This document shows, piece after piece, positions 15,911 to 61,141 of a stretch of DNA of 64,000 nt; within the stretch, counting starts at the first letter, position 1, and each line of letters starts with the position of its first letter. The DNA is taken from positions 8,370,001 through 8,434,000 of the forward strand of contig CM069876.1 of the NCBI GenBank assembly GCA_036172665.1, given 5' to 3'. Origin of the DNA: Prosopocoilus inquinatus (lineage: Eukaryota > Arthropoda > Insecta > Coleoptera > Lucanidae). The position numbers were made by a program, and so were the translations under genes. The notes beneath the pieces were generated by a model. That model saw nothing but the letters and a program-made list of their open reading frames with translations, had not been told where the DNA came from and did no database searches.

Positions 15911-17187
15911 TACGTGGGCTGCTGGAAAAGTCTCTGGAAATGGTATGAAAAAACGCATATGAAATTTGGTAAACGGTATCATTGTTTTTCGAAATATTCG
16001 CCTTTGACGTCAATATACTTTTGCATACGCTCGAACCAATTTCTAAAGCACGTTTTCCACTCTAAAGATGGTACCTCAGAAACCAGTGTCCGGAATGTTT
16101 CAACCGCTGCTTCAGCCGACGAAAATCGCTTACCACGCATTTTATTTTTGATATTTGGAAACAAAAAGAAATCATTAGGTAATAAATCAGGTGAATATGG
16201 ACAATGAGTCATTAATTCAACATTTTTGTTGGACAAAAAATCAACTGTTTGACGGGCTGAGTGAGAGCAGGCGTTGTCATGATGGAGAATAATTCGTCGA
16301 TTTCGATTGTTTCTTCTTATTTGATGGATGACTTCCGGCAAACAAATCGCAGTATACCAATCAGCATTCACGGTTTCGATCCTCTAAAGCCATGGTTGCT
16401 ACATGTCCAGTTAAATCAAAGAAACAAGCAATCATTTGTTTCGCAGTACTACGTGAACGGACAAATTTTGTTGGTTTTGGTTCATTTTGAAATACCCAAA
16501 CGGCAGATTGTTGTTTACTTTCTGGCTCGTACGAACAGATCCACCTTTCGTCAGTAACGATGTTATAAACTAAATTTGAACGACCTTGAATTTCTTCGCA
16601 CCATTTGACACGACGCTGCTTTTGCGCTTCTGTTAAATTGTGTGGGATCCAACGACTGCAAAGCTTTCGTACGTTCAAATGATCATGCAAAATTTGGTGT
16701 ATTGCTTTCACGTCAATGCGTAAGGATGCTTGAATCTCACGGTATGTCACTTGTCGATCTCGCTCAAGCATTTCACGTACAGCATCTACATTAGTGGCAA
16801 CAACAAATGTTGATGAACGACCTTCACGAAATTCGTCACTGAGAGAGGTACGTCCACGCTGGAATTCGGCAAACCAATTATAAACACTGCTGTTTGATGG
16901 TGCTTCATCTCCGAAAGTCAAATGAAGCCGATCGAGACACTGTTTCGGCGGTAGACCACATTTGAAATAGTAAAAATTCATGGCACGAACATTTTCACGC
17001 GAGATTTCCATGTTTACACAAAATTACTTTTTTTTCAAATGCTGTACAAACAAAACTAGTTCACTTGGATAGGAACTGTCAATAAAATTATAGGCGAAAA
17101 ACGTCAAATTTTTCAAATATGACAGTTGATAAACGCTAACAATTCTAGACCTAATAGATTCCAGAAAATTTTCCAGCAGCCCACGTA
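15911..17187 (-). mobile_element. Near-complete mariner transposon
   Basis: Terminal inverted repeats cgtgggctgctggaaaa (15913 onward) and ttttccagcagcccacg (ending 17185) are perfect over 17 bp and flanked by TA on both sides (15911-15912 and 17186-17187). This gives an element of 1273 bp, the usual mariner size. One transposase gene on the minus strand fills it. The intact ends, full length and single frameshift point to a fairly recent insertion. Confidence 0.93.
15979..17011 (-). pseudogene. Mariner transposase, one frameshift
   Basis: The cut-and-paste DNA transposase starts at ATG 17011 and would be about 345 residues, the normal mariner length. The N-terminal helix-turn-helix region includes GLPPKQCLDRLHLTFG and SVYNWFAEFQRG. 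The catalytic domain carries the first Asp in VTDERW, the second in ILHHDNACSHS and the third in YSPDLLPNDFFLFP. The last two are separated by 34 residues, giving the mariner D34D signature. The reading frame is broken once, near 16365-16385: the first part ends at 16361 and the second continues in another frame to 15979. All three catalytic residues remain, so only the frameshift clearly inactivates it. The mariner subfamily is not assigned. Confidence 0.92.
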
Positions 17188-22117: not shown

Positions 22118-22924
22118 GATCGGAGGTAAGGCTTGTTTTGCATTGAAATTCTGTTTGGTTTAAAACAGTGTTTTCTCAAAACTTGAAAATGTTAAGAACC
22201 TCATTTTTTCCGTACCTGAGAAATCCTCGTATTTTGCATTGTTGAAATGATTTTTCTTCTTGAGAGTGAAGGAATTACAAAATTATTGACAGATGTTCAG
22301 ACGAAAAAACAAACTTCTTGATCAAAGATAAAGGATCTAAGAAGATTCGGCACTAGAATCTAGGAACATTGCACCGAATTCACATCTCTGCCCAAAACCC
22401 AGCTGGCGCTAGTGTTGTACTAATAACCAATCAAATAATTCCATGTTTGAAGGAAAGAACAAAAAAATTTAATGACATTTATGTTTGACATAGGCCGAGT
22501 TAAATGAGCGGTCAAATTGCACAGAATCGTTAAGTCAACGGGCCGACTAAACCCTCTGACCAATCAGCAATTGAGAAAAGTGATCACGTGATTTGGTCTG
22601 ACCACTTCGACCATTCACTTACCGCAGCCCTAGTCTGAATATTTCCACCGTTTTTGATATGTATTTGCATAAATGCTTTTAGTGCTTTCGTGTTTAGTTT
22701 GTTTTCATAATTTGCTGTACAGCTGTCGGTGTAATTAGTAAAATTTGTATCGGGTATCGCTGCACGGTCAAAATTTGACTCCCAGTTACTGCACCGAAAA
22801 ACTGCCAACGTGCCCGGACACAGGTAAAAATGTTTTATTTCTATTAAAATGTACGCAGTAACTGTGATACTTTTAAAAAAAGGGAAAGGAACTAAGAACA
22901 ATACGTTTTATTGCAAATGGTGAC
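22118..22924. other. Upstream region of the EFCAB10-like gene
   Basis: About 800 bp between the minus-strand gene and the plus-strand non-LTR element. It contains a palindromic gatcacgtgatt E-box-like site at about 22580 and no clear coding sequence. The open stretch at 22584-22901 (minus) has no recognisable domain. The promoter should lie in the proximal part, but no TATA box was identified. Confidence 0.4.
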
Positions 22925-25276
22925 AATGGTGAAAAATTAATGACAATTCAAAGATACCGGCCTATATTGAATTTTAATTCATTACTGACGACAATACCAG
23001 TTAAACTAAAACTTTTACATTTAAATGTTAAAAGTGTGAGAAACAAAGAGTCAATATTGGAAGTGTTTCTGGAAAACATAAAGCCCGATATTGTGTGTTT
23101 TACTGAGCATTGGTTAACTTCAGAGGAGATGATATCGCTTAATAATTACAATCTAATTAGCAATTTTAGTGGAAATAAGAAGCGTGGTGGAGGAGCTTGT
23201 ATTTTCGCTAGAAAAAACATTACAGCTGTTGATATTAGTTGCAATGCTATTGAAGAGAACTGCGAGATGGTTGCATGTAGGCTTACGGTAATGAAGATAA
23301 AATATTTAATAATATCAGTATACCGATCGCATCAGTCTGATTTAATGGAGTTTTTTAAAAATTTTGATTCACAATTACTCGAGCTGTATAAATATGCCGA
23401 CTTTCATGTAGTCTGTGGGGATTTCAATATAAACACATTACGGGCATCATCTGATTCAAAAGATCTTATAAATTTAATGCTGCAGTATAACTTGGCCTTA
23501 AGAACCAATCAAGCTACAAGGATAAATAAATACTCGGAAACTTGTATCGATAACATTTTCACGGATTTCGATTGCTCCGTTAGCATTAGAGAAACATTTC
23601 TTTCGGATCATACTTTTCAGATACTTGATTTCGTAATCTATGAGGTTAATCGTGATGACACAATTTTTTATAAACGTAACTTTAATATGTCCAGTATGAC
23701 CTTATTCTATGAAAGTTTGTTATCAGAAGAATGGAAAGATGTATATAGAGCAGAAGGGATTGACGAAAAATTTGATACCTTTAAAACTATATTTATGTGT
23801 TACTTCGATACTGCCTTCCCTATTAAACAATCAAAACGAAACTTCAGTCACAAAAGTACCTGGTTAACGAATGATATTAGAAATATGGGTAATATGCTAA
23901 ACGAAATGCAACAAATTAATAGAACACTGAACAATGATCGGTACCATCAACGTTTCATCGAATTTAAAACAATTGACAAAATCAAAATAGATCGAGCGAA
24001 ACACACTTATAATTCCAATAGAATTGTAGAAGCGACAAATATTTCTCGCGAATGCTGGAAAATTATTAATGAAAGTCGACCTGAAACATATTTCACAGAG
24101 TGTCGTTTGGTGGACTCGAGTAATAATATAATACTTGATAAAACCGAAATCCCCGATATGCTAAACAAACACTTTGTAAAAAATTCAGCAAAACCTCCAA
24201 CTAGAAAAACATGCGCAACAGATCAATCTTTTCCAGAATCCATGTTTTTAGCACCAACAGATAAATGTGAAGTCGAAAATGTTATAAAAACAAAATGCGT
24301 TAAGAAAAGTACTGGAATAGACAATATTCCCGGTATTGTCTTGAAAGCTGTTGCTGATTTAATAGCAAGCCCTCTGAGTCACTTGATTAACGAATCATTT
24401 TCGTCCGACCAGTATCCTTCCGATTTGAAAATATCCAAAATTATTCCCGTGTTTAAGAACAAGGGTAGTCGTCTGGACGCAGCGAATTATAGGCCAATTG
24501 CTTTGTAAAGCCAGTTCGGGAAAGTATTCGAGGAAATCTTTCATAAAAGGCTTATTTCATATCTTCACAAGCATAAAATTATCTCCAATGCACAAAATGG
24601 TTTTCGGAAAGGAAAATCAACAAAAACAGCAATCACTGATACCTTTAATTTGGTTCTTACCGAGCTCATCGGTAAAAGGAAAGTAGTAGCACTATTTCGT
24701 GATCTCAGTCGAGCTTTCGACATTGTCAACCACAATTTACTTTGTCACAAACTAGAAAATATGGGTATAAGAGGATCCGTAAACCGATGGATAAAATCTT
24801 ATCTCTGCGGTAGAACACAAAAAGTGGCGGTTAACGGCGAATTATCATCTGCGCTGGAAGTGAACAACGGAGCTCCCCAAGGGTCTATCCTCGGTCCCGT
24901 GTTGTTCACCCTTTTCATCAACGACCTCCCCTTATGTTGTCCATCTTCAACAAAAACAGTCATCTATGCCGACGACACGACGTTCATAATATCAAGTAAC
25001 AGCCCCGAAGATCTGGTCCTTAAAACAAATAATACGTTGAGCGAAATGAACCAGTGGTGTTTGTGTAACGGGTTAACTTTAAATGTGATCAAAACTCAAA
25101 TAATGCCGTTTGTGACAAAAAATATTACAATCGAAACTTCGCCATTAGTCAAACTTAACGGTATTTCAGTAGCTTGTGTTAACCATTATAAGTTTTTGGG
25201 AGTGCATATTGATTGTAAATTAACCTGAAACTGTTATGTACATTACCCATATAAGTTAAATACCCGAATATTTTTA

Positions 25277-25512
25277 ACAGATAAAATAGCGACATCTTAC
25301 TATCGCTTTTTGATAGAAGATGTCGCTATTTGATCTGTTCATCACTCTTACATCGCAATTGCAAATAAATTGGACAAGTCGTTTTTGTTTGCAGTGGAAA
25401 TGTCGAGCTACGTCTCTGCTGAAGAAGCCCCAAGCAGGGCTGAAACAGCTGTCCAGAGCCTGCTCGAGGTTTTCACTGCAATCAAGAACGATTTGCACAA
25501 AATTTTTCAACA
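25277..25512 (-). mobile_element. Hammerhead-bearing retroelement, copy 1
   Basis: Inserted in the reverse transcriptase gene and flanked by a perfect 10-bp duplication aatattttta (25267-25276 and 25513-25522). On the minus strand the family's 3' terminus (...gatgtcgctattttatctgt) sits at 25277-25309. The remaining 200 bp are in the opposite orientation and carry a hammerhead ribozyme on the plus strand. The head-to-head junction makes a hairpin (gcgacatctt...agatgtcgc, 25288-25332). Removing one duplication plus the insert gives a continuous IFLLYRLRH reading across the site, confirming that this is an insertion. Confidence 0.85.
25403..25467 (+). ncRNA. Type I hammerhead ribozyme
   Basis: The catalytic core is CUGAAGA (25419-25425) and GAAA (25442-25445), with the cleavage triplet GUC at 25451-25453 and the scissile bond after 25453. 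Stem I: CUCUG (25414-25418) pairs with CAGAG (25454-25458), then an internal loop, then UCGAG (25403-25407) with CUCGA (25463-25467). Stem II: AGCCC (25426-25430) pairs with GGGCU (25437-25441) across a six-base loop. Stem III is two pairs with a four-base loop; because ACAGCUGU (25445-25452) is self-complementary, it could form a longer stem in a dimer. Every invariant core position of the hammerhead is present. Confidence 0.88.
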
Positions 25513-26350
25513 AATATTTTTACTTTATAGATTACGACATACGGTTAATTACGAGATTTTGAGATGCTTATATTTCGGTTTAATTCACCCGCTTCTTGCA
25601 TATGGCATAATTTTCTGGGGTAACTGCGCTACATCCGGCAATGTATTCAAAATTCAGAAAAAAGCTGTTCGATTAATGGGAGGTCTGGATTCTCGGCAAA
25701 GCTGTAAAGATTTATTCAAATTGTACAACATTATGACTGTTCCGTCACTGTATATTTATGAAATCGTGCTATATGCGCGATCAGTTGAAAATACTGTTAG
25801 CCGAAATAAGGATTATCATAATTATTACACAAGAAAAAATGAAGATTATCGGGTACCTTTCAATCGCTTGACGATTGGACAAAGTGGTCCAATTTCAGCA
25901 GGGTTAACGTATTTAAACAAAATTAAAACTCTATGGAATAATTCGTTACCCACTTGTAATCGTTATTTTAAAAGCAGATTAAAACAAATGTTAATATCAG
26001 GCGCCTTCTATTGGGTAGATGAATTTTTAAATCAACATTATTGAATTAATTCATTAAAAATTTTTGTTGAATTAATTCATTACTTCAATAATTTACATTA
26101 TTTAACTTTTAACGAAATATTTATTGATTGTTTTTATTTTTTATTTTAATTTGTTGTATAAGTAAACGAATCAGAATAACGATGTGAATCTGAAATAAGA
26201 TGAGGCTTTGTCTTGTCTATCTAACGTCACACTTACGTGATATGTATCTATGTAATAATTTTAATGTTACCACCAATTTTTCTGTGCTTGACTTGTGCAA
26301 CAAACTTCTGTTTCTTGCATCAATAAAATTATTATTATTATTATTATTCC

Positions 26351-33439: not shown

Positions 33440-33588
33440 TTATGTCCTATATTCCATATTTGTCACCTTCTTACATACAATCATTTTCCTTTTTTTTAAT
33501 TAATTTTTAAATTAATTTGTCTGTAAAAATTCATTGTTTCTTTCTATGCATTTGTTTTTCAATATTCCTTTTTGGTTTATCAATAAAT

Positions 33589-34017
33589 AAAACCTGTTTT
33601 CGTAGACAACAATTTTCTACAAACGATATTCTCGATTCTATAATAATAGAATTGTTTTATACTTTTTTAGATAAGAAATATTGCTTATAATCAAAGTTAG
33701 TAAGAAGTTTGAACAAAACAAATGATTTTTGCCAGCAAAAGCAAAAAACAAAATAAAACCTGTTTTCGTAGACAACAATTTTCTACAAACGATATTCTCG
33801 ATTCTTTAATAATAGAATTCTTTTATACTTTTTTAGATAAGAAATATTGCTTATAATCAAAGTTAGTAAGAAGTTTGAACAAACCAAATGATTTTTGCCA
33901 GCAAAAGCAAAAAACAAAACAAAACCTGTTTTCGTAGACAACAATTTTCTACAAACGATATTCTCGATTCTTTAATAATAGAATTCTTTTATACTTTTTT
34001 AGATAAGAAATATTGCT
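33589..34017. repeat. 166-bp tandem array, 2.6 copies
   Basis: The unit beginning aaaacctgttttcgtagac occurs at 33589, 33755 and 33921, an exact 166-bp period. Copies two and three are nearly identical over the shared part and copy one differs at a few positions. The third copy stops after about 97 bp. Each unit contains the small palindrome gtagacaacaattttctac. There is no coding potential. Confidence 0.9.
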
Positions 34018-40362: not shown

Positions 40363-40535
40363 TAAGCTTAGGATAATTATGCATTAAAAAACTTCAAAAT
40401 ATGCATGCGCATATGCACTAAAATCATCAAATATATGCACTTAAATATGCATTAAAAATTGACTTTTATAGAATAAATAATATTTTTTATTTTAGAAAAA
40501 TTTTGTGCAAATCGTTTTTGATTGCAGTGAGAACC

Positions 40536-40600
40536 TCGAGCAGCCTCTGGACAGCTGTTTCAGCCCTGCTTGGGGCTTCTTCAGCAGAAACGTAGCTCGA
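40536..40600 (-). ncRNA. Type I hammerhead ribozyme (antisense segment of copy 2)
   Basis: On the minus strand, core CUGAAGA is the complement of 40578-40584, GAAA of 40558-40561 and the GUC cleavage triplet of 40550-40552. The stem II sequences AGCCCC/AGGGCU and the outer stem I UCGAG/CUCGA are intact. One inner stem I pair becomes a mismatch or wobble relative to copy 1. It is an inverted duplicate of the ribozyme at 40776-40840. Confidence 0.82.
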
Positions 40601-40775
40601 CATTCCCATTTCATTTTCATTTTCATTAGGAGCAAATCCCGCTTCAATTTGTCTATCCTACTGCAATGTTAGGTCAAAAAGCGATAGTAAGATGTCGCTA
40701 TTTTATATGTTCATCATTCTTACATCGCATTTGCGAATAAATTGGGCAAGTCGTTTTTGGTCTGCAGGGGGAATG

Positions 40776-40840
40776 TCGAGCTACGTTTCTGCTGAAGAAG
40801 CCCCAAGCAGGGCTGAAACAGCTGTCCAGAGGCTGCTCGA
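40776..40840 (+). ncRNA. Type I hammerhead ribozyme (sense unit of copy 2)
   Basis: Core CUGAAGA is at 40792-40798, GAAA at 40815-40818 and GUC at 40824-40826, with cleavage expected after 40826. Inner stem I UUCUG/CAGAG has one G-U wobble, and outer stem I UCGAG/CUCGA is intact. Stem II is identical to copy 1. The stem III palindrome ACAGCUGU is retained. A transcript of two or more tandem 312-bp units would contain one such site per unit and could be cut to unit length. Confidence 0.88.
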
Positions 40841-41113
40841 GGTTCTCACTGCAATCAAAAACGATTTGCACAAAATTTTTCTAAAATCTTTCATTATGCT
40901 TTGACAGCAAGCATGGCCGCCTTGCATGGGGGACTCATTAGGAGCAAATCCCGCTTCAATTTGTCTATCCTACTGCAATGTTAGGTCAAAAAGCGATAGT
41001 AAGATGTCGCTATTTTATATGTTTAATATTTTTTATGTTACCACATTCTTCATTATTTTGCTACAAAAAAACAAAAACTTTTTTTTAATTCTAAATTATT
41101 TATTTAGTCGTTA

Positions 41114-42598
41114 TTATAGAAACAAATTACATTTAACTACAACATGGTGTAAAAAATTCTCAAAAGTAAATTTGCGCCTATTGTCGGCGAGAATATTTTT
41201 GTACTGAGAAAACACTTTCTCGACATCGCAGGACACTATTGGTACAAATTCGTATTTTACAACGTCATTGACACTTAAATGTTCGTTTTTTTCATTAAGG
41301 GTCGATTCATTTTGCAACACTTCACTTATATTCTTCAGTTGCTGATAGCCCGTATTTTTTGACAGCACTTCGTTTAATTTATTGATAAAAATATTTTTCT
41401 TGAGTTTTGCTAAACCGTTAACTACATGTTCTACTATTTGAATGCTTTCTTGTAAAGATAGACCCTTAGCTTCTAGCTTGGAGATTGCAGTCGAAATGCA
41501 TGCCAGATTAGCTCAAATAAAAATTAAATCTTCTCGAATACCTTTTTTTCTCAGAATACTCTGTGCTTCTTCGATGCACTGCGCTTCCTCAGAGTCGAAT
41601 TCATCAACAATTTTCTTCACAATTTCAAAATTTTCAGCGTAATACACAGCAGCGTCGATCCAACTTCCCCATCTTGTTTGTAATGATTGGCGCAGGTGGA
41701 AGTGGAATGTCACCCGAAATTTCCCGAAACTTCTGAATACGACTTGGTGCCTTAAGGAAAATCATTTTCACAGATGATATTAGCACATTAACATTTGAAT
41801 AAAGATTACGAACTAAATCAGTTACTCGATGTAAGCCATGTGCTAAACAGGTCACATGTATCATGTTTGGGTATAAAACCTGCAGTCCCCGCATTGTTTT
41901 GCACATATATGCTGCAGCATCACTACAAACCGCTAGCACTTTTTCATATAAAATTCCAGACGGCCACAATAAACTTAAAGAGTCGTTGAAAAAAGCAGCG
42001 ACTGTTGAATGATTTACTTTGTCCAACACTTTTAAAGTGAGCAGATATGATTTATTTTTTTCTTCAGGAACCCCTAATATACCAAACACAAAATTTCCTA
42101 TTCATCTTTGTTCTTCATCGGTTGTTTCATCCAACGACACCCAAATAGAATGATCCCTTACTTTTGCTCTTAATTTATCCAATGTTAATGTATACAATTC
42201 AGAAACATAATTTTTTCTTAATGTCGATTCATCTGGAATATTTTGCTTTGTATACTTTTCCAAAAAATGGCAGAGAACTTCATTTTTTAACTTAGCTAAT
42301 GGGATGTGTGCGCAAATAAAAGCCTTACAAAGTTCTGCATTGAATTCTGAACGTTTAGGTCCAGGCGTCGGTAAATTAGAAATTAACACTTGCCGTTCGT
42401 TATTTCCCCTTTTGCGATTTTTATTACTTGCATGCTTTCCGGTTTGAAGAATCTTGAAATTTGAACCTCGCAGTATTTACAAAATAACTGACGCCCATCC
42501 GTTATAAAATCATCACAAACTGGTTTAAAATTGCACTTACACACTTTTTTTCTTTTGGCATCTTGAGAGATGTTAAGCCTATTGCAATCAGCATACAA
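41114..42598 (-). pseudogene. hAT transposase with BED finger, frameshifted
   Basis: The fragments follow the order of one hAT protein. 42598-42383 is a BED-type finger remnant (LFCKYCEVQI). 42389-42102 ends in WVSLDETTDEEQR, the first catalytic Asp block. 42089-41634 contains VCSDAAAYMCKTM (second catalytic Asp) and HVTCLAHGLHRV. 41713-41513 contains TRWGSWIDAA. 41368-41114 ends in VEKVFSQYKNILADNRRKFTFENF, the C-terminal dimerisation motif. At least four frame changes or stops separate them. It originally bound the subterminal repeats and cut the element out of DNA; this copy is dead. Confidence 0.85.
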
Positions 42599-44998: not shown

Positions 44999-45030
44999 CG
45001 CTTAAAAATTTTTAGAAAAATTTTTAAGCG
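44999..45030. repeat. Perfect snap-back palindrome
   Basis: cgcttaaaaattttt (44999-45013) and aaaaatttttaagcg (45016-45030) are exact complements around a 2-base loop. The left half is flanking target DNA and the right half is the start of the retroelement insert. Confidence 0.9.
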
Positions 45031-45076
45031 AAATGTCAGGTCAAAAAGCGATAGTAAGATGTCGCTATTTTATCTG
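45016..45076 (+). mobile_element. Hammerhead-family retroelement, copy 3 (3' stub)
   Basis: Only 61 bp, flanked by a perfect 14-bp duplication ttaaaaatttttag (45002-45015 and 45077-45090). The last 40 or so bases (ggtcaaaaagcgatagtaag through ttttatctg) are the 3' terminus also seen at the ends of copies 1 and 2. The first 15 bases are an inverted copy of the target flank. The ribozyme region is not included. Confidence 0.85.
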
Positions 45077-45090
45077 TTAAAAATTTTTAG

Positions 45091-45371: not shown

Positions 45372-45726
45372 GCAACCCTGCTTTGGGTTGCCAGATGAAA
45401 CTCTTGCAAATTCCCTAGATATTCCTAGCCTTACGTTGCTTGTCCTGCTTTGGAGATTTGGAGAATTGGATATTTTGAGATTGCTGTCATTGGGTTTCGT
45501 CGTTCACTTGCCGGAAGTGATTGGTTATCGTTGAACACGTGATCAAAAGCAACCCTGCTTTGGGTTGCCAGATGAAACTTTTGCAAATTCCCTAGATTTT
45601 CCTAGTGTTACGTTGCTTGTCCTGCTTTGGAGATTTGGAGAATTGGATATTTTGAGATTGCTGTCATTGGGTTTCGTCGTTCACTTGACGAAAGTGATTG
45701 GTTATCGTTGAACTCGTGACCAATGA
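45372..45726. repeat. 177-bp tandem duplication
   Basis: The block starting caaccctgctttgggttgcc at 45373 recurs at 45550, a period of 177 bp, with few differences. Open stretches in it (45253-45534 plus, 45608-45808 minus) are simply repeat sequence without a domain. A related ggcaaccctg motif reappears at 46566, so both may belong to a longer repeat of about 1.2 kb. Confidence 0.85.
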
Positions 45727-60156: not shown

Positions 60157-61141
60157 TTAGTCTCTTCTTAAATTAATACACTTATTACAGCGATCCTGCA
60201 ACGCCTCTAATCCTTTCCAAAAAAAAAAAAGATTCTTCTTGCTCAGCCCTCCACAGCTTCTGTTACCTCTTCGTTACATAAAAATTCATGTCCGTTTAGG
60301 CTTTTTTTTTTCAATGGAGGAAATAGAAAACAGTCCGAACGAGCAAGATCTGGGGAATAGGGTGGGTGTTGCAGTAATTCGAACCCTAAATCTCGAATTG
60401 AATTCATGTCAATGTGTGATTTGTGTGCAGGTGCAATGTTCTGCAAAAACAGCACACCTTTCGCTAGCATACCACGACTTTTTTCTTTGATTTTCTCTCT
60501 TGGAGTAGTTAGTAATTTAAAATAATAATCTCGTTATTGTTTGGCTCTTTTTTAGATTATAATCAATCATAATCATTCCATGAATGACCCAAAAAACTGA
60601 AGCAAGAACTTTTCCAGCTGATTTTTGGATTTTAGGCCTTGCAGAACCACAGTATTTCTACTCCATCGATTGCTGCTTCGTTTCTGGGTCGCGAAAATGC
60701 ATCCAAGTTTCATCCATGGGCACAAGACGATTTTGTCGGAAACGGGCACAGATTGAGCGTGATGTTTCCACTCTTGCTCGTTTTTGGTCGGCATTAAAGC
60801 ATTTGGGTATCCATTTTGTAGATTTTTTTTCATACCTAAATTGATGTGGACGCGTTCGTATGAAACCTTCAACGTCTCCGTTATATACTTCAGCCCAATA
60901 CGACGGTATGACAATATCATATCATGAACTGCATCAATATTTTTCTGGGTGGACATCGAAATTGGTCTTCCTTGCCTCTTTTCATCTTCAACGGAACGTT
61001 TTCCTCGTTTAAATGATGCAACCCATTTTTTTACAGTTGCGCATGAAGGGCACTGATCCCCGAGTGTAGTAAGCATCAAAAATCTGCTGACCTCTTAGCC
61101 CCCTTCAAATAAAGGTACTTAATGATGGCTCGATACTCCAA
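60157..61141 (-). pseudogene. Dead mariner transposase (second lineage)
   Basis: Pieces in order on the minus strand: LEYRAIIKYLYLKG (N-terminus, about 61141); LTTLGDQCPSCATVKKWVASFKRG (helix-turn-helix region, from 61079); DEKRQGRPIS; RIGLKYITETLKVSYERVH; DYYFKLLTTPREKIKEK; GVLFLQNIAPAHKSH; HPPYSPDLARSDCFLFP; and the C-terminus to a stop at 60157. The first catalytic Asp block is degraded (WMKLGCIF where MDETW is usual) and the second Asp is replaced by Asn (QNIAPAHK). The third Asp is kept, 34 residues on. Several frameshifts and stops. Older than and different from the mariner at 15911-17187; terminal repeats were not found. Confidence 0.85.

Follow-up and report, generated by a model that had tools for sequence, protein, structure and literature searches.

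Organization of the insertion in the window

The window analyzed here is a stretch of 64,000 nt from the forward strand of Prosopocoilus inquinatus (Lucanidae) DNA (GCA_036172665.1, CM069876.1, positions 8,370,001-8,434,000), on the contig labelled C8 of a 650-Mb assembly of 173 contigs. It carries an insertion of 533 bp at 40491-41023. The ends given for it in the first-pass annotation are exact, since the perfect 13-bp duplication reported there, TAATATTTTTTAT, stands in identical copies at 40478-40490 and 41024-41036 and abuts the insertion on both sides. Positions within the element are given below on a unit of 312 nt (u1-u312, window 40623-40934), and T1 and T2 denote its two kinds of outer end.

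40478..40490, no strand: left target-site duplication TAATATTTTTTAT, 13 bp (exact match to 41024-41036)
40491..40607, minus strand: T2 arm, antisense cDNA running from outer end u263 to inner end u147 (identical to the reverse complement of 40769-40885)
40536..40600, minus strand: antisense type I hammerhead (u218-u154) with a cut predicted between 40550 and 40549 (descriptor match 40546-40584; coordinates via the exact inverted repeat)
40608..40622, no strand: 15 nt between the arms (ATTTCATTTTCATTT), filler or short template jump (in neither arm; weak placement at u266-280)
40623..41023, plus strand: T1 arm, sense cDNA, 401 nt, u1-312 followed by u1-89, outer end T1 (repeat comparison and unit mapping)
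40681..40711, plus strand: T1 end repeated internally, including the hairpin GCGA..TCGC (repeat comparison and fold)
40776..40840, plus strand: sense type I hammerhead (u154-218), with core CTGAAGA..GAAA and a cut predicted between 40826 and 40827 (descriptor; each helix pair retained by 93-97 of 97 genomic copies)
40855..40887, plus strand: T2 end region repeated internally (TCAAAAACGATTTGCACAAAATTTTTC with the bases that follow; sequence match)
41024..41036, no strand: right target-site duplication, 13 bp (exact match to 40478-40490)
25277..25512, minus strand: second retrozyme insertion of 236 bp, with its T1 end (minus strand) on the left and its T2 end on the right, duplications at 25267-25276 and 25513-25522
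45016..45078, plus strand: third, minimal insertion, 63 bp, consisting of a T2 arm of ~10 nt and a T1 arm of u43-89
45004..45015 and 45079..45090: duplications of the 63-bp copy, AAAAATTTTTAG (12 bp by eye; 11 bp in another register by script)

The sense 312-bp unit and the second, partial unit that had been described at this locus were recovered by repeat comparison: 40623-40721 recurs at 40935-41033 with a spacing of 312, at 96% identity over 99 nt and 100% over the 89 nt that lie within the insertion. The inverted 5' segment with its antisense hammerhead is likewise present, the stretch 40489-40607 being the reverse complement of 40769-40887 (119 nt, 100% identity). It is, however, no chance inversion but a second arm with a fixed outer end of its own, and a second cDNA arm describes it better than a "5' inversion" does. 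The earlier statement that no protein is encoded also holds, as none of the stop-to-stop frames of at least 110 aa lies inside 40491-41023. A reading frame for reverse transcriptase (RT) and GIY-YIG is absent from the insertion, and the element is not classed as a Penelope-like element (PLE).

Other mobile sequences were observed in the window. The second retrozyme copy sits between the open frames of a LINE (22877-26044, plus strand), which it interrupts; this LINE has an endonuclease domain and, as judged by eye, a frame with a YADD motif. Beside the 533-bp insertion, 41114-42476 (minus strand) is a possible remnant of a hAT-like transposase, with a sub-threshold DUF659 match in one of its three frames and none in the other two. 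Mariner-like transposase remnants occur at 15979-17023 (minus strand), with a Mos1-type HTH, and at 60573-61094 (minus strand), with a weak HTH match below the cut-off. Two tandem repeats are located at 45372-45723 (period 177, 2 copies) and 33585-34017 (period 166, 2.6 copies).

Hammerhead motifs and predicted fold

A strict type I hammerhead descriptor, comprising the core and stems I, II and III, matched the window at 40792-40830 (plus strand), 40546-40584 (minus) and 25419-25457 (plus; in the second retrozyme copy) alone, and gave 0 matches in 300 dinucleotide shuffles of the 64-kb window. In unit coordinates the core begins at u170, and cleavage is predicted after the GUC at u204. A scan of the window with Rfam gave no match at gathering level; both motifs scored below threshold for HH9 (14.5 bits against a gathering score of 52, E = 2). 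A match to MIR7533 (44 bits, cutoff 230) was rejected as an identity for the element, as it simply reflects the long inverted repeat.

Among 97 complete genomic copies from 64 regions, every base pair of the three hammerhead helices persists in 93-97. C precedes the cut in 77 of these copies and A in 20; any base but G may stand there in a hammerhead, and both are thus allowed. Compensatory changes in the helices were not seen among the 97 copies, so the structure rests on the motif. The circular fold predicted for the unit has an MFE of -107.3 (z = -7.3 versus 100 mononucleotide shuffles) and places T1 and T2 unpaired at the base of the hammerhead rod. Their closeness in this fold is not unusual, 21% of equally spaced pairs being as close.

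The element has a type I hammerhead, a tandem unit of 312 nt in a class whose units measure ~150-450 nt, and no coding capacity. It is probably a retrozyme, with a two-ended, one-RNA insertion pattern that is a variant undescribed for retrozymes in the literature examined.

A genome-wide family with two fixed outer ends

Genomic copies lacking a common terminal structure or duplications would have refuted the first-pass annotation. The genome search revealed thousands of copies, and those sampled share both features. With up to three mismatches and internal occurrences included, 21,429 T1 ends, 20,478 T2 ends and 18,212 hammerhead cores were counted, while the reversed-pattern controls gave 0 each over the whole genome. 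Copies were mapped to the circular unit by a Viterbi path, an end at u82-103 being called T1 and one at u254-276 T2. The outer ends are fixed, T1 near u89 and T2 near u264.

The main sample was drawn from contig C1 by merging the first 30 exact T1 matches and the first 30 exact hammerhead matches into 44 regions; because it was picked by exact matches, it leans to young copies and its T1 ends are partly selected. These regions held 54 chains, and 53 were retained after one edge chain was left out. Head-to-head organization was observed in 40 of the 53: 34 were T1/T2, one was T1/T1 and five had one unassigned end. The single T1/T1 chain had no detectable duplication. By position alone 36 chains would be T1/T2, but two of them, C1_1279456 and C1_1385922, are single sense arms and were excluded. 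The 13 chains that are not simply head-to-head comprise single arms, fragments and more complex arrangements, one of which has T2 at both ends and looks like two adjoining insertions. The orientation of the T1/T2 chains is even (17:17).

In the regions picked by the hammerhead alone, 17 of 24 chains are head-to-head, with 13 T1/T2, one T1/T1 and three unassigned. If the two ends were independent and at even odds, at most one same-type chain would be expected with p = 1.0e-9 among 35 chains and p = 9e-4 among 14. In a second set, composed of 26 best-hit loci and the three window copies, 21 of 31 non-edge chains are head-to-head, 19 of them T1/T2 and none same-type; these counts include both members of two allelic pairs (L017/L020 and L018/L019), of which L019 and L020 were dropped from later counts. 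Head-to-head organization with one T1 and one T2 end is thus the rule in this family, which in this shows a trait of PLEs, head-to-head copies with two defined start sites (tail).

Two insertions in C15 (1761240-2690700) recur on C6 (30417772-31399703) in reversed order and with the same duplications, and C15 may therefore be an alternative haplotype of part of C6.

Target sites and duplications

Duplications of at least 9 bp flank 29 of the 34 T1/T2 chains of the C1 sample (12 bp in 14 chains, 13 bp in 7), and their lengths in the retrozyme family vary between 8 and 15 bp, with a mode of 12. They lie in the palindromic context AACnnTAAnnTTAnnGTT, and the joined flanks of 42 insertions read nAACnnTAAnnTTAnnGTTn around the 12-bp duplication. 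The target matrix was symmetrised to a palindrome, but both halves are also apparent in the unsymmetrised counts of a single orientation: among 20 sites with a 12-bp duplication, position 4 is A in 16 and position 9 is T in 17. The window copy is absent from the 42 sites, since its mapped path ran on into the duplication. The site is symmetric and yet the two ends of the insertions are unlike, which suggests that the asymmetry of the ends stems from the RNA or the enzyme rather than from the target.

Two different constant ends in most copies, together with duplications, would also befit a non-autonomous copy of a DNA transposon with two ends or of a foldback element. Such an origin is highly improbable. 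The duplications vary in length, T1 and T2 are not inverted repeats of each other, and the interior joins and arm lengths (33-876 nt) differ from copy to copy, with only small clusters of common joins; no transposase frame was noticed along with these ends.

Inner joins and arm lengths

The inner ends of the arms are spread over the unit, and only 1 of 118 falls within 3 nt of the hammerhead cut versus 2.6 expected. The templates therefore mostly did not end at the cut, in keeping with circles or uncut multimers; transcripts of homogeneous arrays, as linear multimers, would leave the same picture as a circle. The arms measure 33-876 nt, and in 20 of 51 insertions an arm is longer than one unit. 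The 59 inner joins fall into 45 clusters (44 by a second clustering rule), and microhomology of at least 2 nt was detected in 28 of 44 distinct junctions (64%), versus 17% for random joins. The window copy at 40491-41023 carries 15 nt between its arms in place of a microhomology join.

One inner junction, u146-150/u179-183, is common to seven loci (L012, L014, L015, L016, L024, L026 and L028), and both assignments of T1 and T2 to the arms occur among these copies. The junction is either a hot spot at the imperfect inverted repeat CTGCAGGGG/CCCCAAGCAG or the mark of a re-transposed inverted copy.

The head-to-head form, the microhomology joins and the duplications recall the twin priming of LINEs, in which a target-primed insertion acquires a 5' inversion when the second strand primes somewhere inside the RNA, and LINEs are present in the window. 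This explanation is nevertheless quite unlikely to hold. The second start lies near u264 in most copies and is not random, both ends being fixed in 34 of the 40 head-to-head chains of the C1 sample. Constant poly(A) between the T1 end and the duplication is lacking in the 42 sites listed, and a PLE family of the same genome, described below, follows the same two-end rule.

A common RNA template for the two arms

The relationship between arms was analyzed at 13 unit positions with two common alleles (subfamily sites), in the 24 insertions that offered at least three comparisons among the 51 head-to-head T1/T2 insertions of both sets. The two arms of one insertion differ in 15 of 252 diagnostic comparisons, versus 44% between insertions; the lowest of 300 arm re-pairings gave a difference of 24.8%, and 15 of the 24 insertions showed no arm difference at all. 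Successive laps within one arm differ in 5 of 111 comparisons. The arms, and likewise the laps, therefore derive for the most part from a single RNA or from RNAs with one source. Two exceptions, C1_4578305 (3 of 4 sites different) and C1_4417947 (2 of 4), suggest that two RNAs are used now and then. When all sites were considered, the contrast was weaker (2.3% within versus 4.6% between insertions), and in 7 of 39 cases no other arm was closer than the insertion's own.

A common template would equally follow from self-priming on an antisense transcript, whereby snap-back synthesis yields a head-to-head copy, as has been proposed for the head-to-head PLEs of bdelloids in the portion of PMC3846280 used here. 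Self-priming would presumably produce near-symmetric inner joins; those observed are spread and unequal (45 clusters in 59), and the T1/T2 identity of the outer ends would be left unexplained. It is accordingly a very unlikely source of these copies.

Penelope-like elements of the same genome

A GIY-YIG family, PLE1, yielded 150 scored matches among 2232 candidates, many of them in minus/plus pairs. One copy, L095, contains an open frame of 788 aa with RVT_1 and GIY-YIG. Partial relatives of PLE1 occur in Tribolium (52% identity over 56% of PLE1) and Molorchus (49% over 59% of it), and closer database matches exist. The outer ends were read in ten pairs (L096-L115), chosen for a GIY-YIG domain in both arms. 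All ten combine a T1 end at ..CTCACTATTTAT with a T2 end at ..GCTTTGTGATTA, 40 nt further on, and the duplications measure 11-15 bp with a mode of 12; L095 is, by eye, built in the same way.

PLE1 thus shares with the retrozyme one T1 and one T2 end per copy, the head-to-head form and the mode of the duplications. It differs in encoding RT and GIY-YIG, in its end sequences and in its target sites, and its start sites are 40 nt apart, versus 137 or 175 nt on the 312-nt retrozyme unit. Its hammerhead-like motifs, as well as those of PLE2, fail the strict type I descriptor. The GC content of the duplications is 28% in PLE1 versus 16% in the retrozyme (p = 0.002, n = 10 and 42), and PLE1 sites scored under the retrozyme matrix behave like controls (p = 0.18 versus genomic windows and 0.35 versus shuffles, n = 10).

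Mobilisation of the retrozyme by PLE1 itself was considered in view of the same one-of-each ends, the 12-bp duplications and the stop-free open frames in many PLE1 copies. The ends, the duplication GC and the target-site scores differ from those of the retrozyme, so that PLE1 is probably not the driver, and this assignment appears unlikely.

Further families were sought with the protein queries P0013, P0112 and P0102, and more exist beyond PLE1-PLE4; several PLE families with long open frames are apparently present in the genome. Of the loci retrieved, L118 proved to be PLE1 and L120 contained no recognisable PLE. A full-length PLE with the terminal sequence of the retrozyme, which the first-pass annotation suggested looking for, was not found in PLE1 or in the stretches read of PLE2-PLE4: the ends of PLE1 differ, and the stretches of PLE2 (L116, L117, L119, L121), PLE3 (L122, L123, L125, L126) and PLE4 (L124) gave no match to the retrozyme unit that belongs to a PLE. 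A match in L122 was rejected as a PLE3 end, as it belongs to a separate, diverged retrozyme copy (1162-1601, 79-82% identity to the unit, with antisense and sense parts) downstream of the PLE3 copy. The PLE2 stretches and the PLE3 copy of L123 run into (TA)n.

A foreign piece of 192 nt in two chimeric retrozyme copies (L066 and L067) was likewise rejected as driver sequence, full matches being confined to those loci. A partial match occurs at a third place nearby and otherwise only short, diverged pieces were detected.

Comparison with known retrozymes and Penelope-like elements

Animal non-LTR retrozymes, as characterized in the parts of Cervera and de la Pena 2020 (PMC7229834) compared here, share with the present family a tandem non-coding unit of a few hundred nt, a type I hammerhead, a GC content below 50% (44% here), duplications longer than 4 bp, thousands of copies and PLEs in the same genome. 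They are described there as tandem repeats, whereas head-to-head copies with two fixed ends are the rule here, and circular RNA was demonstrated for them and is putative here. The same source names PLEs as strong candidates for retrozyme mobilisation, on the grounds that both have hammerheads and tandem copies and occur together. Its main text contains none of the words inverted, orientation and head-to-head. Among the titles and abstract openings listed on retrozymes, hammerheads and Penelope elements, none mentions head-to-head or inverted retrozymes; descriptions elsewhere in print may exist. Passages of a review (PMC7761336) also served in this comparison.

Endonuclease-bearing PLEs also resemble the family. 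In the sections of Arkhipova et al. 2013 (PMC3846280) considered, bdelloid Penelope elements are reported as head-to-head copies with an optional 31-bp tail, and head-to-head copies, a tail and short duplications are all traits of the present family. For the Anolis PLE (PAc), the sections used of Frangieh et al. 2024 (PMC11167929) report cleavage and extension on both DNA strands, with reverse transcription initiated internally at two neighbouring positions whose intervening sequence makes up the tail. The retrozyme resembles PAc in having a tail, which in PAc is defined by the two internal starts, as well as a hammerhead and AT-rich target sites cleaved on each strand. According to the same sections, the start site used in vitro by the Anolis enzyme did not differ between the strands, and hammerhead mutants still gave insertion in vitro. 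Unlike these PLEs, the retrozyme encodes no protein. One-of-each use of the start sites is nearly invariant in it, whereas the tail is called optional in the accounts of published PLEs consulted.

Proposed insertion mechanism and its significance

The reading of the first-pass annotation as a retrozyme or Penelope-like terminal-repeat element gains support from the common ends and duplications, the lack of a reading frame, the presence of a hammerhead on each strand and the PLE1-like architecture. The insertion is likely to represent a non-autonomous animal retrozyme, copied at two fixed start sites of one circular or multimeric RNA by Penelope-type machinery.

The transcript of the 312-nt non-coding unit would probably be cut and ligated into a circle, or serve uncut as a multimer. 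A staggered cut ~12 bp apart at the palindromic AT-rich site would be made by a reverse transcriptase/endonuclease of Penelope type, which probably acts as a dimer. Both 3' ends would then prime synthesis on the same RNA, with T1 (u~89) as the start for one and T2 (u~264) for the other. Having grown to variable length, sometimes over more than one lap of the unit, these cDNAs would be joined head-to-head, often with 2-5 nt of microhomology. The genomic copies show the anatomy, the two fixed ends with their one-of-each rule, the duplications, the palindromic site, the variable joins, the common template and the matching architecture of PLE1, whereas we infer that a circle, a dimer and this enzyme took part, and in which order the steps occurred. 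To our knowledge, the Anolis enzyme is the one full-length PLE enzyme that has been purified.

In a more general form, for which the chances appear evenly balanced, retrozymes and PLEs would have a two-sided mechanism of their own, in which the symmetric halves of the enzyme, on a palindromic target, each use a different start site of one (circular) RNA. If so, every copy would consist of two cDNAs of the same RNA joined head-to-head, and a single process would underlie both the PLE tail and the retrozyme inversion. The two-ended signature common to the retrozyme and PLE1 is far more specific than shared hammerheads, tandem copies and co-occurrence. The target motif AACnnTAAnnTTAnnGTT allows the driver to be sought and an assay to be designed, and the one-of-each rule, together with the common template of the arms, constrains how Penelope-like elements insert.
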